In this document: in pieces, positions 1-62,587 of the stretch | Position numbering within the stretch: the first letter of the stretch is position 1 | Layout: every line of letters begins with the position of its first letter | NCBI RefSeq assembly: GCF_947488715.1 | Contig: NZ_CANLAG010000002.1 | Location: 62,001 to 126,000, forward strand | DNA from: an uncultured Tateyamaria sp. | Lineage (GTDB): Bacteria > Pseudomonadota > Alphaproteobacteria > Rhodobacterales > Rhodobacteraceae | Direction: 5' to 3' | DNA length: 64,000 bases | The notes under the pieces: model-generated | Told to the model about the DNA's origin: nothing | Seen by the model: only the letters and a program-made list of their open reading frames with translations | Database searches by the model: none | Program-made: the position numbers and the translations under genes

Positions 1-173
1 ATGGGCGCCACGACGTCTCCGACTGGATCGCGTCACAGTTCCCCGACTTGTCGCCCCGCGCCATTCAGGACCGTCTGGGCCTGTGGGAACGTGACGGCTG
101 GACCTACGAGCAAACCGCGAGCTTTGGCCACTTCGGCCGCGCGGGCCTGCCTTGGGAAAAATCGCTTCTCTGA
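1..173 (+). CDS. metK: S-adenosylmethionine synthetase, C-terminal end only
   Basis: The reading frame enters at base 3 and ends at TGA 171-173, giving the last 56 residues. The late MetK signature is readable as SFGHFGR (usual form AYGHFGR), then a terminal WEK, preceded by an LSPRAI segment like the LSPRGI of the family. MetK makes S-adenosylmethionine from methionine and ATP in the cytosol. The tail is divergent from the usual alphaproteobacterial form, which suggests (inference) a second copy rather than the housekeeping gene. A methionyl-tRNA synthetase gene follows 66 nt later on the same strand. The catalytic part lies outside the window. Confidence 0.75.
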   Translation, partial: GRHDVSDWIASQFPDLSPRAIQDRLGLWERDGWTYEQTASFGHFGRAGLPWEKSLL

Positions 174-239
174 CACCTTTTGCCAGCTCTGCCCGCACGC
201 GGTGGGGCTGGCGACCTCAGCACATCCAAAGGACATCCA

Positions 240-1895
240 ATGACACAGAACACCCCCACCCGCGTGGTGCAAACCATCGCTCTGGCCTATGCCAACGGCG
301 ACCTGCATGTCGGGCACCTGGTCGAGGCAATCTTTGCCGACTGCCACGCCCGTCACCGCCGCGCCCGCGGCGACGATGTCGTCTTTCTCGGGGCCGATGA
401 TTGCCACGGCACGCCGATCGAGATCAAAGCCGCAGCCCAGAACCAGACCCCACAAGAACTGATCGCCGACATCGGCGCGCGCCACCGCGCGGACTATGCC
501 GCCTTCGACATTTCCTTGGACCACTATCACAGCACCGACAGCCCCGAAAACGAGGCCCTGTGCGCCGAAGTCTACCGCCACATGCAGGAGGCGGGCCTGA
601 TCGACCGCCGCAATGTCGCGCAACTCTTCGACCCGGACGCAGGCCGTTTTCTCAGTGATCGGCACGTCAAAGGGGGCTGCCCGAAATGCGGGGCGCTGGA
701 CCAGTATGGCGACAATTGCGAGGCTTGCGGCGCGACCTATCAGGCGACCGAACTGGCGCATCCCGTTTCAACGCTGACGGGCGCGACACCTGTCATTGCC
801 GACTCCGAGCACCTGTTTTTTCGCGTCAGCGCGCTGGAACCCATCGTGCGTGCATGGGCGCAATCGGGGACGTTGCAGTCCGGTGTGTTGGCCAAAATCA
901 GCGACTGGTTCGATGATGGTCTGCGCGACTGGGACATCTCGCGTGACGCGCCGTATTTCGGCTTTCCGATCCCGGACGAGCCGGGAAAGTTCTTCTACGT
1001 CTGGCTCGATGCACCGCTCGGCTACATCGCGTCGCTGATCGCCTATCTGAACGCCACTGGCAGCAGCCGGACGTGGCGCGATGATTGGGGCGAGGGGTCG
1101 GACACCGAAATCATCCACCACATTGGCAAGGACATCATCTCGTTTCACGCCGTGTTCTGGCCCGCCTTGCTGACGGCCGGCAAATGCCGGTTGCCCAGCC
1201 GCGTGCAAGCGCACGGCTTCCTGACGGTTGAGGGCGCCAAGATGAGCAAATCGCGCGGCACCTTCTTGCTGGCCAGCGATCTGGCGGCACATGTGGACAG
1301 CGACGCGGTGCGCTATGCGCTCTTGTCGCGCTTGGGCGATTTCACCACCGATATCGACTTTTCCGCCCGCGACGTGGTGGATCGGGTCAATGCCGAACTG
1401 GTGGGCAAGATCGCCAACATCCCCGTGCGGTTGCGCGGTCTGGTGCAGGACCCGGAGGCGGTGCACCTGTCTGACACCCTGCTGGACCCCGCACTCTGGG
1501 CCGAGTGCGCCGCACTTGCCGACGATGCGGTTGCGCAATTCCACGCCTTTGAACCGGGGCAGGCCATCCGCCGGATCGTCGACATCGCAACCCGCACCAA
1601 CGGCTTTATCCAGTCGCATGCGCCGTGGGCGCAAACCGATCTGGTGGCGCGCAATGCGGTCACCACGCAGGCGCTATGCCAGTTCCGCCTGATCGCCGCC
1701 CTGTTGCAGCCCGTTTCGCCACGCTTCGCGCAACGCTGCCTTGCGGTCTTTGGGACCGAGGCCGTCGCTTGGGCTGACCTGAGCACGCCAGTGCTGGGCA
1801 CAACTGCGGCCCTGCCCACACACCTGATGGACCGGCTCGACGCGGGCGGGATCGCCGCCCTGTTCAACCAACCCGCCACACCAAAGGAGGCCTGA
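240..1895 (+). CDS. metG: Methionine--tRNA ligase, E. coli-type core, probably a second copy
   Basis: 551-residue class I synthetase that charges tRNA-Met with methionine. The ATP-binding HIGH motif is HVGH (residues 23-26) and KMSKS is intact (334-338), so it looks active. One zinc knuckle is present, with Cys147, 150, 160 and 163, the pattern of E. coli MetRS. The protein stops after the anticodon-binding helices and has no C-terminal EMAP/Trbp111 domain. The ATG at 240 is preferred to an upstream in-frame start at 180 because homology begins just after it. It lies between a metK and a P-loop ATPase gene; its own end carries a strong AAAGGAGG for the next gene. That this is an extra, non-housekeeping MetRS is inference from context. 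Confidence 0.9.
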   Translation: MTQNTPTRVVQTIALAYANGDLHVGHLVEAIFADCHARHRRARGDDVVFLGADDCHGTPIEIKAAAQNQTPQELIADIGARHRADYAAFDISLDHYHSTDSPENEALCAEVYRHMQEAGLIDRRNVAQLFDPDAGRFLSDRHVKGGCPKCGALDQYGDNCEACGATYQATELAHPVSTLTGATPVIADSEHLFFRVSALEPIVRAWAQSGTLQSGVLAKISDWFDDGLRDWDISRDAPYFGFPIPDEPGKFFYVWLDAPLGYIASLIAYLNATGSSRTWRDDWGEGSDTEIIHHIGKDIISFHAVFWPALLTAGKCRLPSRVQAHGFLTVEGAKMSKSRGTFLLASDLAAHVDSDAVRYALLSRLGDFTTDIDFSARDVVDRVNAELVGKIANIPVRLRGLVQDPEAVHLSDTLLDPALWAECAALADDAVAQFHAFEPGQAIRRIVDIATRTNGFIQSHAPWAQTDLVARNAVTTQALCQFRLIAALLQPVSPRFAQRCLAVFGTEAVAWADLSTPVLGTTAALPTHLMDRLDAGGIAALFNQPATPKEA

Positions 1896-1896
1896 C

Positions 1897-2769
1897 ATGA
1901 AAATGAGCACAGCCCAGGAGTTTCGCAGCCTGGAGATCAAGAACATCGCCCTCATCGGCATGAGCGGCGTGGGCAAGACGCACCTGTCCAACATGTTGCG
2001 CGCCACGGGTGACTGGTTCCATTACTCGGTCGATTACCGCATCGGATCGGCCTATCTGGCGTCCCACATCGACGATGACCTGCGCCGCGCTGCGATGGAA
2101 CTGGCACCGTTCCCGAACCTGTTGCGGGCGGATGCGGTCACGATCAAGGCAAAGTTCGGGATCGACAACCTGGATGCCATGTCGGCCTATCTGGGTCAGA
2201 TCGGCGACCCGGCCAAGGGCGGCATGGATCGCTGCGCCTTTCTGGCGCGGCAGGCGGTCCACAAACGTGCCGAAACGGCTGCGATGCAGGACATCCGCGC
2301 CTTTCAGGACCGCGCGCGCGGCATCCTGAACTACAACCACTTCGTCTGTGACACGTCCGGCAGCCTGTGCAGCGTGGTCGATCCCAACGACCGCAACGAT
2401 CCGATCCTGCAAAAGCTCGCCCGCGATCACGTCCTGCTCTACATCGAAGGCGACGATGCCGCCCGCCAGGAACTGATCGACCGTTTCTGTGAACGGCCCA
2501 AGCCGATCTACTACTCCGATGCGTTCTTTGAGGCGGCTGAAAACGTCTATCTCGAAACGCAGGGGGCGGATGCCGATTGGCGCGATGTCGATCCAAACGG
2601 CTTTGCGATCTGGGCCTTTCGTCGGCTGATCGAATTTCGCCTGCCGATCTATCGCCAGATTGCCAAAAACTGGGGCTACACGATACCTGCACGCGATCTG
2701 GTGGGCATCAACACTGCCGAGGATTTTGTGGGCCTGATCGGCGAGGTTGTCGCACAGGGCAACGCTTGA
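1897..2769 (+). CDS. P-loop NTPase of unknown function, coupled to metG
   Basis: 290 residues, not recognised as a named family. A Walker A motif GMSGVGKT sits at residues 21-28, directly after a beta-strand (NIALI), as in small-molecule kinases and shikimate-kinase-like folds. No transmembrane segment or signal peptide is visible, so it is probably cytosolic. The start follows the metG stop by one base, with AAAGGAGG six bases upstream, so the two are co-transcribed. Context suggests a role linked to methionine, SAM or tRNA-Met, but nothing in the sequence names the substrate. Confidence 0.8.
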   Translation: MKMSTAQEFRSLEIKNIALIGMSGVGKTHLSNMLRATGDWFHYSVDYRIGSAYLASHIDDDLRRAAMELAPFPNLLRADAVTIKAKFGIDNLDAMSAYLGQIGDPAKGGMDRCAFLARQAVHKRAETAAMQDIRAFQDRARGILNYNHFVCDTSGSLCSVVDPNDRNDPILQKLARDHVLLYIEGDDAARQELIDRFCERPKPIYYSDAFFEAAENVYLETQGADADWRDVDPNGFAIWAFRRLIEFRLPIYRQIAKNWGYTIPARDLVGINTAEDFVGLIGEVVAQGNA

Positions 2770-61252: not shown

Positions 61253-62587
61253 ATGACCGACCTTTATGACAACCAGCGCAGCATGCGGAACATGCGCAAG
61301 ATTGCGATGCAGCGGGGCGTCGTCGCCATTCTGGACGTTGGCAGTTCCAAGATTGCCTGCCTTGTGTTGCGGTTCGACGGGACGACCAAGCTGGGCGATG
61401 AGGGCGAGATTGGTTCATTGGCCGGTCAATCCGGGTTCCGGGTGATCGGGGCCGCAACCACGCGGTCGCGCGGCGTGCGCTTTGGTGAAATCTGCGCGAT
61501 GCAGGAAACCGAACGCGCCATTCGTACTGCCTTGCAGGCCGCGCAAAAGATGGCGGGTATCCGGGTGGATCACGTCATTGCATGTTTTTCAGGGGCAGAG
61601 CCGCGCAGCTATGGGCTGGACGCGCAGGTGGATCTGGAAGGGCAGGTGGTCACGGAACAGGACGTGGCCCGTGTCCTGTCGCGGTGTGATGTCCCGGATT
61701 ACGGTGAAAACCGCGAGGTGCTGCACGCGCAGCCGGTGAACTTTGCCCTGGATCATCGTTCCGGGCTGTCGGACCCACGTGGGCAACTGGGCAATGCTCT
61801 GGCCGTCGATATGCACATGCTGACGGTGGACGCCGACGCGGTGCAGCATTTGGCGCATTGTGTGAAACGCTGTGATCTCGAATTGGCGGGCATTGCATCA
61901 TCGGCCTATGCGTCCGGTATTGCCGCGCTCGTCGAGGACGAGCAGGAGCTTGGTGCCGCCTGTATCGACCTTGGCGGTGGCTCGACCGGTGTGTCGATCT
62001 TTATCAAAAAACACATGATCTATGCCGACGCTGTGCGCATGGGTGGCGATCACGTGACGTCGGACATTTCGATGGGGCTTCAGGTGCCTACGGCCAATGC
62101 GGAACGGATCAAGACGTTTTACGGCGGGGTGCATGCTACGGGCATGGACGACCGCGAGATGATCGAAATTGGTGGCGACACAGGCGACTACGAACATGAC
62201 CGCCGCACTGCGTCCCGTGCCGAATTGATTGGCATCATGCGCCCCCGTGTCGAAGAGATCCTCGAAGAAGTACGGGCCCGTCTGGATGCGGCCGGGTTTG
62301 ACCATTTGCCCAGCCAGCAGATCGTTTTGACCGGTGGCGGCAGTCAGATTCCCGGCCTTGATGGCCTCGCCTCCAAAATTCTGGGCCAACAGGTGCGTCT
62401 GGGGCGTCCGCTGCGCGTGCATGGATTGCCACAGGCGGCAACCGGTCCGGGATTTGCCTCTGCCGTCGGTTTGGCTCTCTTTGCGGCGCATCCCCAGGAC
62501 GAGTGGTGGGATTTCGATATCCTACACGACCGCTATCCCGCACGCAGCCTGCGCCGGGCCGTGAAATGGTTCCGCGACAACTGGTGA
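61253..62587 (+). CDS. ftsA: Cell division protein FtsA
   Basis: 444 residues, actin-like. ATP site AILDVGSSKIACLVLR, the 1C domain, GAACIDLGGGSTGVSIF and VLTGGGSQIPGL; C-terminal amphipathic end RRAVKWFRDNW for membrane binding. It anchors FtsZ to the membrane. Five bases after ftsQ. Confidence 0.97.
   Translation: MTDLYDNQRSMRNMRKIAMQRGVVAILDVGSSKIACLVLRFDGTTKLGDEGEIGSLAGQSGFRVIGAATTRSRGVRFGEICAMQETERAIRTALQAAQKMAGIRVDHVIACFSGAEPRSYGLDAQVDLEGQVVTEQDVARVLSRCDVPDYGENREVLHAQPVNFALDHRSGLSDPRGQLGNALAVDMHMLTVDADAVQHLAHCVKRCDLELAGIASSAYASGIAALVEDEQELGAACIDLGGGSTGVSIFIKKHMIYADAVRMGGDHVTSDISMGLQVPTANAERIKTFYGGVHATGMDDREMIEIGGDTGDYEHDRRTASRAELIGIMRPRVEEILEEVRARLDAAGFDHLPSQQIVLTGGGSQIPGLDGLASKILGQQVRLGRPLRVHGLPQAATGPGFASAVGLALFAAHPQDEWWDFDILHDRYPARSLRRAVKWFRDNW

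Follow-up and report, generated by a model that had tools for sequence, protein, structure and literature searches.

A metA-linked P-loop ATPase family as candidate homoserine kinases, with a diverged copy in an operon of second methionine enzymes

Why would a bacterium keep a second S-adenosylmethionine (SAM) synthetase, a second methionyl-tRNA synthetase (MetRS) and a P-loop protein in a single run of genes? The question is raised by the first 2,769 positions of a 64,000-nucleotide stretch of DNA (positions 62,001 to 126,000 of contig C2), which at its full length is called the window here. An earlier note, made from the letters alone, had described a MetK tail, a complete E. coli-type MetRS with HVGH and KMSKS, and a P-loop protein with GMSGVGKT lying in one run, and both the coordinates and the protein models agree with that description. 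The answer put forward below turns on the P-loop protein, ATPase2, which is a diverged paralog of a family of proteins encoded beside metA; that family is a candidate for a missing homoserine kinase, and the operon in which ATPase2 stands may serve tolerance to an antimetabolite.

The three genes, metK2, metRS2 and ATPase2, are the last of a five-gene same-strand operon that starts upstream of the window and runs in the order GNAT acetyltransferase, SemiSWEET-like membrane protein, MetK2, MetRS2 and ATPase2. The earlier idea of a three-gene cassette thus stands as regards a single operon and falls short as regards its extent, the two genes beyond the window also belonging to it. Its features are as follows.

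Contig C2:60154-60699, + strand: GNAT gene; Pfam Acetyltransf_1 passes.
Contig C2:60696-60986, + strand: SemiSWEET-like gene; family match below its cut-off.
Window 1..173, + strand: 3′ end of metK2, the second copy of the SAM synthetase gene (Pfam).
Window 240..1895, + strand: metRS2, the second MetRS gene copy (NF001100).
Window 306..317, + strand: HVGH, the HIGH motif of MetRS2.
Window 1239..1253, + strand: KMSKS motif of MetRS2, aligned with QFSTS in the housekeeping copy.
Window 1897..2769, + strand: ATPase2, P-loop kinase-like, a diverged paralog of the metA-linked ATPase family.
Window 1957..1980, + strand: Walker A motif of ATPase2, GMSGVGKT.
Window 2032..2034, + strand: D46 of ATPase2, identical in all 53 other aligned relatives.
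Window 2371..2373, + strand: S159 of ATPase2, a position held by E in all 53 other aligned relatives.
Window 2638..2664, + strand: R248-x-P-x-Y252-x-x-x-A256 of ATPase2, from the AroK alignment.

The gaps across the five genes are -4, 68, 66 and 1 base, the last of these being the single base, already remarked upon in the earlier note, between the metRS2 stop and the ATG of ATPase2. All of the reading frames are intact, with one stop per gene, at its end. Both methionine enzymes are indeed duplicates, as had been suspected, the genome (99.98 % complete) holding one further metG at C10:106889-108469 and one further metK, whose C-terminal domain lies at C4:96074-96502. With those copies found, ordinary housekeeping by sole copies of metK and metG in the operon was rejected. 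MetK2 has 372 amino acids, and its gene begins 946 bases before the window, at contig C2:61055; its tail is in frame at window 3-173 and matches Pfam S-AdoMet_synt_C with an E-value of 2.5e-6, all three of its Pfam domains pass, and its catalytic motifs are retained. Against TIGR01034 it scores 289.7 bits, just under the cut-off of 309.4, the housekeeping MetK1 scoring 499 bits, and the two are 43.4 % identical over the aligned columns of a global alignment. MetRS2 (551 amino acids) scores 592.3 bits against the cut-off of 587 of the E. coli-type model NF001100 and has the HIGH motif, the KMSKS motif and the zinc knuckle of that type, and it lacks the C-terminal extension that the 676-position model has; measured in the same way, it is 30.8 % identical to the housekeeping MetG1. 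At the active site, the latter (L010:6769-8478, - strand) reads HLGN and QFSTS, as against HVGH and KMSKS in MetRS2. In alignments with their E. coli counterparts, MetK2 and MetRS2 retain the residues that serve catalysis and methionine binding there.

The P-loop protein had been called unrecognised, which is true in so far as no Pfam family reaches its cut-off with ATPase2, and not in so far as its paralog is found in nearly every sampled genome of the family and adjoins metA where examined. A relative was found in 284 of the 295 family genomes (in 255 of 260 when those of good quality are counted), the sample amounting to about one genome per genus (294 genera). This degree of conservation, along with the second copies of metK and metG, is the reverse of what the earlier note had set down as the mark of plain housekeeping. 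Five of the 295 genomes have two matches. Among them, the present genome carries two ATPases that are 38 % identical, and the only other one inspected, G214, has its second copy at a contig end. The linkage to metA was read from 30 family loci, namely the best-scoring 29 from other genomes and the housekeeping copy of this one. In 29 of them metA follows the ATPase gene on the same strand, within 300 bases in 28 and at 640 in one; in the 30th it follows after one intervening gene. The pairing extends to other families. At an E-value of 1e-6, a relative was found in 23 of 347 genomes of the class sample, five of them from this family and 18 from others, in a scan that, like the family and class scans for MetRS2 below, scored part of each genome's first-look candidates. 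The 18 relatives from other families include 13 of full length, of which all but one (L161) have metA following, 12 in total; the remaining five are short, and metA stands beside none. The MetA neighbours in other families are 37-61 % identical to the family MetA query, and an annotated Paracoccus plasmid has the same pair, an ATPase followed by a homoserine O-succinyltransferase. Because the neighbouring MetA is nearest to the homoserine O-acetyltransferase model (of three tested, one passes the cut-off and two fall just short of it), the ATPase and its MetA neighbour would have homoserine in common. Upstream of the ATPase-metA pair at some loci (L041:2380-3312 and L014:2409-3311) there is a gene for a DMT-type exporter, weakly YedA-like and possibly an amino acid exporter.

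What sort of enzyme might such a protein be? When a profile of 22 diverse family members was compared with solved structures, the best match was shikimate kinase 1kag (E 0.00097, in two collinear pieces), followed by 3trf (E 0.0059), with small GTPases and adenylate kinase close behind at E 0.008 and up. When hhalign compared the profile with a panel of 12 E. coli proteins (two being fragments), AroK came first, at 89 % probability over 173 columns from end to end. Among NCBIfam models at an E-value of 0.05, NF040667, which is a Desulfovibrio homoserine kinase model, matches 18 of the 22 members (best E 1.1e-5), the next family, IS21 helper ATPase, matching five. The residues identical in ATPase2 and all 53 other aligned relatives include the Walker A lysine, D46, R118, Q119, E126, D152 and the PKP of positions 201-203. 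D46 lies 19 residues after the Walker A lysine, the spacing of the substrate-binding Asp of shikimate kinase as well. In the RxPxYxxxA motif, R, Y and A are identical in all 53 other relatives and P in 48, and AroK has the same motif at the aligned place. Walker A, the Asp and RxPxYxxxA come in shikimate-kinase order over the full length. Like AroK, the family is collinear throughout, with an Asp after the Walker A lysine and RxPxYxxxA on the C-terminal side; unlike AroK, it has long insertions in the alignment, occupies a different genomic slot, and has no aro gene seen beside its own genes. The Desulfovibrio homoserine kinase DvMF_0971 is likewise shikimate-kinase-like and was shown to have that function by complementation of E. 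coli thrB (Price 2018, PMC5764234); NF040667, which matches the ATPase family weakly, is linked to it by name. ATPase2 differs from that model in matching it only over the N-terminal 40 residues and in being 127 residues longer, and its family differs in adjoining metA. AlphaFold2, run on ATPase2 alone, gave a mean predicted local distance difference test score of 36.3 and no usable model. Overall, the ATPase appears closer to a shikimate-kinase-type kinase acting on homoserine than to a methionine-activating enzyme. A role as a modifier of tRNA-Met was also considered, and was dropped because of the metA linkage.

A known homoserine kinase is also what most of the genomes examined seem to lack. 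In 21 genomes examined for threonine synthase (ThrC) and homoserine kinase (ThrB), ThrC scores above its cut-off in all 21, and known ThrB does so in five by TIGR00938 and in none by TIGR00191. That leaves 16 genomes with ThrC and no ThrB above cut-off, and the six tested members of the family are all among them. Where known ThrB is present, it lies between ispH and rnhA in each of the five genomes; these represent four families (three family labels and f56) and include two pairs of close kin. In all three f136 genomes without ThrB at the cut-offs, the same ispH-rnhA slot is taken by a short relative of the ATPase. No other single sign of a common function is as strong as this in-place displacement, which concerns the short relatives, one of them 30.7 % identical to ATPase2, rather than the metA-linked proteins or ATPase2 itself. 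The family thus resembles the APH-type ThrB of TIGR00938 in where its short members lie, while being a different sequence family with a Walker A P-loop. Phaeobacter, to judge from the named relatives Paracoccus and Pseudorhodobacter and from taxonomy, is probably in the same family as this genome. According to GapMind 2020 (PMC7311316), ThrB seems to be missing from Phaeobacter inhibens and Dinoroseobacter shibae, and neither has TIGR02535, which had been proposed as the alternative. Price 2018 (PMC5764234) reports that an E. coli thrB mutant could not be rescued with the shikimate kinase of P. inhibens. No paper naming a homoserine kinase candidate for these bacteria was found among the listings of open-licence literature searched.

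Taken together, the sequences make it probable that the metA-linked ATPase family is the missing ThrB, a kinase that would convert homoserine, its presumed substrate, and ATP to O-phosphohomoserine. Several observations weigh against this. The 21 genomes were all picked for carrying the ATPase family, and five of them hold known ThrB in addition to the ATPase-metA pair; because those five have both, the family is not a simple replacement for ThrB. Below cut-off, TIGR00938 matches five more genomes and TIGR00191 matches 12 (one being G447 of f136, at 40.7 bits against a cut-off of 168); these matches are presumed to be other kinases. Two of the 16 genomes lacking ThrB are only 81 and 86 % complete, and two short f48 members and the relative in G557 have no metA, ispH or rnhA in the flanks available. 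The fitness data for P. inhibens gave no candidate for a homoserine kinase (Price 2018, PMC5764234). The likenesses to shikimate kinase and NF040667 are weak, the matches to the latter being well below cut-off (for ATPase2, 20.4 bits against 197, at residues 16-55 only). In the hhalign panel, cytidylate kinase came second (64 %) and AroL third (10 %), with the rest below 1 % and adk unaligned, and in an hmmsearch of the same panel AroK was again first and gluconate kinase second. A rather unlikely alternative is that the metA-linked ATPase is an ATP-driven partner or regulator of MetA, or else a kinase of another small molecule of methionine metabolism. It would suit the linkage being to metA, the five genomes that also keep known ThrB, and the presence of a second ATPase copy with metK and metRS, but it leaves unexplained both the three short relatives in the thrB slot, where ThrC is present and known ThrB was not found, and the absence of ThrB above cut-off from all six family members tested. 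As a separate observation on G557 (L223), no ThrB scores above cut-off there, and its ATPase gene has no metA, ispH or rnhA within 10.6 kb.

Within this family of candidate homoserine kinases, ATPase2 (290 amino acids) stands apart. It groups with the family and with one f56 sister row (37 rows, support 98/97) on a long branch, in a tree whose bootstrap is unsettled and whose branches are long. Where 67 columns are conserved in at least 90 % of 48 full-length relatives, ATPase2 keeps 57 and loses 10, other full-length rows losing at most nine, a comparison that leans against ATPase2 because the columns were chosen without it. The S159 of ATPase2, moreover, replaces a Glu that is otherwise invariant in 53 relatives. 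The loss of this Glu and of conserved columns marks ATPase2 as a changed copy, and its substrate may differ from that of the family. There is an about even prospect that the fuller account holds, in which the metA-linked P-loop proteins would be new homoserine kinases that fill the ThrB gap of Phaeobacter and Dinoroseobacter and that replaced ThrB in the slot of another lineage, with ATPase2 as a neofunctionalized paralog, a copy recruited to an operon that protects methionine use.

The operon itself is an orphan in the data searched, since MetRS2 and the GNAT are confined to this genome and no ATPase, GNAT or SemiSWEET gene lies beside the metG loci examined. At an E-value of 1e-100, MetRS2 was found in this genome alone, whether among 295 family, 20 genus or 385 class genomes, and the GNAT, at 1e-12, in one of the 295 family genomes, which is again this one. 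The closest MetRS2 loci in genome_contigs, namely the best 80 of at least 594, are 41-46 % identical and almost all gamma- and betaproteobacterial. By tblastn of the flanks, many of which are short, the ATPase, GNAT and SemiSWEET genes are absent beside these 80 loci and beside 19 viral loci. The three-gene order, for which the earlier note had suggested a search of other genomes, was accordingly not found among the samples searched or the best 80 of at least 594 metG loci, one of which (L088) is followed by a metK at a distance of about 0.6 kb. A scan of genome_contigs that relies on exact short stretches found no ATPase2 relatives. In the plasmid collection, metK genes are at most 40 % identical to MetK2, and the E. 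coli-type metG genes of phages and plasmids are at most 44 % identical to MetRS2, no closer than gammaproteobacterial metG. A Thioclava plasmid metK and a Phaeobacter G2 plasmid metG were considered as homes of the cassette, and neither plasmid carries it. It was also seen that a full-length metG about 44 % identical to MetRS2 is present in many plasmid records from E. coli with a size near 110 kb, as well as in related phage records (189 Escherichia records match in all), that Pseudomonas phage Y5 and Acinetobacter phage MD-2021a have a metG about 42 % identical, and that plasmids of Rhizobium, Sinorhizobium, Klebsiella and Streptomyces have genes annotated as class I tRNA ligase family proteins that match part of MetRS2 at about 24-28 % identity.

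As for its setting, the operon is closed at both ends by a divergent gene for a 1285-amino-acid protein with weak AAA matches, upstream of the GNAT gene, and by a convergent endonuclease/phosphatase-family gene downstream of ATPase2. The G+C content of the operon (0.60-0.65 in 1-kb bins) is similar to that of the surrounding DNA, and no compositional break was seen at it. No tRNA gene lies within 20 kb upstream, the nearest downstream being at window 12108. The phage and viral contigs searched hold no relative of the ATPase, which also has no PHROG at an E-value of 0.01; MetK2 and MetRS2 match PHROGs of unknown function. In sum, a mobile or phage origin was not supported by the phage, viral-contig, PHROG, tRNA and composition checks. 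Anti-phage defence was set aside, as the five operon proteins have no PADLOC match at an E-value of 0.01, and so was a riboswitch, the five weak Rfam matches in 12 loci all being under the gathering score and none of them a methionine or SAM riboswitch. The GNAT could not be assigned to a known type: Acetyltransf_1 alone passes, no NCBIfam family is matched at an E-value of 0.1, and none of the solved structures comes closer than E 0.19. Inspection of the reading frames by eye, over 18 kb on the upstream side and 6 kb on the downstream side, revealed no recognizable biosynthetic genes, in what was not a systematic search. Among the neighbours, the divergent 1285-amino-acid protein (L007:14126-17983, - strand) has weak matches to AAA_22 and to PADLOC mad8. 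A 348-amino-acid protein (L007:12953-13999; contig C2:54953-55999) consists mostly of repeats of about 30 residues (SRRKP...AFAFPRHARMA), and the gene beside it looks like one for PucC.

What, then, would the operon do? Tentatively, it would be a tolerance set against a methionine- or homoserine-like antimetabolite, a reading in which we infer both the analogue and the role of every part. Tolerance to a methionine analogue was among the guesses of the earlier note. The reading is prompted by the company that three methionine or homoserine enzymes (the third by its proposed function), all distant second copies, keep with an N-acetyltransferase and a small transporter-like protein. MetRS2 and MetK2 would act as targets insensitive to the antimetabolite; acetylation of its amino group would fall to the GNAT and its export to the small membrane protein, and ATPase2 would be either an insensitive kinase or one that phosphorylates the analogue. 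The differing active-site signature of the housekeeping MetRS and the loss from ATPase2 of an otherwise invariant Glu are in favour of tolerance. Against it, no product-specific gene was recognized in the operon, no orthologous operon was found in which selection could be examined, and we know of no such analogue. The nearest parallels are the immunity synthetases and N-acetyltransferases that act against aminoacyl-tRNA synthetase inhibitors (AgnB2, MccE and the second MetRS of Streptococcus pneumoniae); as in those systems, a second, differently built synthetase and a GNAT stand together, whereas this operon has no known producer genes or inhibitor and adds a second MetK and a kinase. The genes could instead, though this is unlikely, be plainly redundant: isozymes gained by horizontal transfer or duplicated long ago, which have no special purpose and support the housekeeping copies in certain growth conditions. 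The composition of the operon, which resembles that of its surroundings, and its normal active sites would agree with that, as would the existence of second MetRS genes elsewhere, one being known in Streptococcus pneumoniae by the title of a reference; yet three separate methionine or homoserine paralogs with a GNAT and a transporter-like gene in one operon, the occurrence of MetRS2 and the GNAT in no other sampled genome, and the long branch and lost invariant residue of ATPase2 are poorly accounted for. More doubtful still is a role in supply, in which Met-tRNA from MetRS2 and SAM from MetK2 would feed a GNAT-fold enzyme able to attach methionine or a portion of SAM to an acceptor, ATPase2 phosphorylating a precursor and the membrane protein exporting the product. 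There are known enzymes of the GNAT fold with aminoacyl-tRNA or SAM as substrate, the operon is single, tightly spaced and inclusive of the GNAT, and both methionine enzymes look active from their sequences. Supply is disfavoured by the lack of a synthase, methyltransferase or other product-specific gene and by a GNAT that resembles no NCBIfam family or solved structure at the limits given above. The whole of the preferred explanation, homoserine kinase for the family and analogue tolerance for the operon, has a chance somewhat short of even.

Threonine synthesis in this marine group has a published hole, in that Price 2018 and GapMind 2020 could name no homoserine kinase for P. inhibens, nor GapMind for D. 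shibae, and a conserved gene adjacent to metA is now a candidate to fill it. If that candidate is right, predictions of threonine auxotrophy for genomes of the family would be mended. The operon described here supplies a natural paralog of the ATPase and, should tolerance prove true, would hint at an antimetabolite that strikes several methionine enzymes at once.

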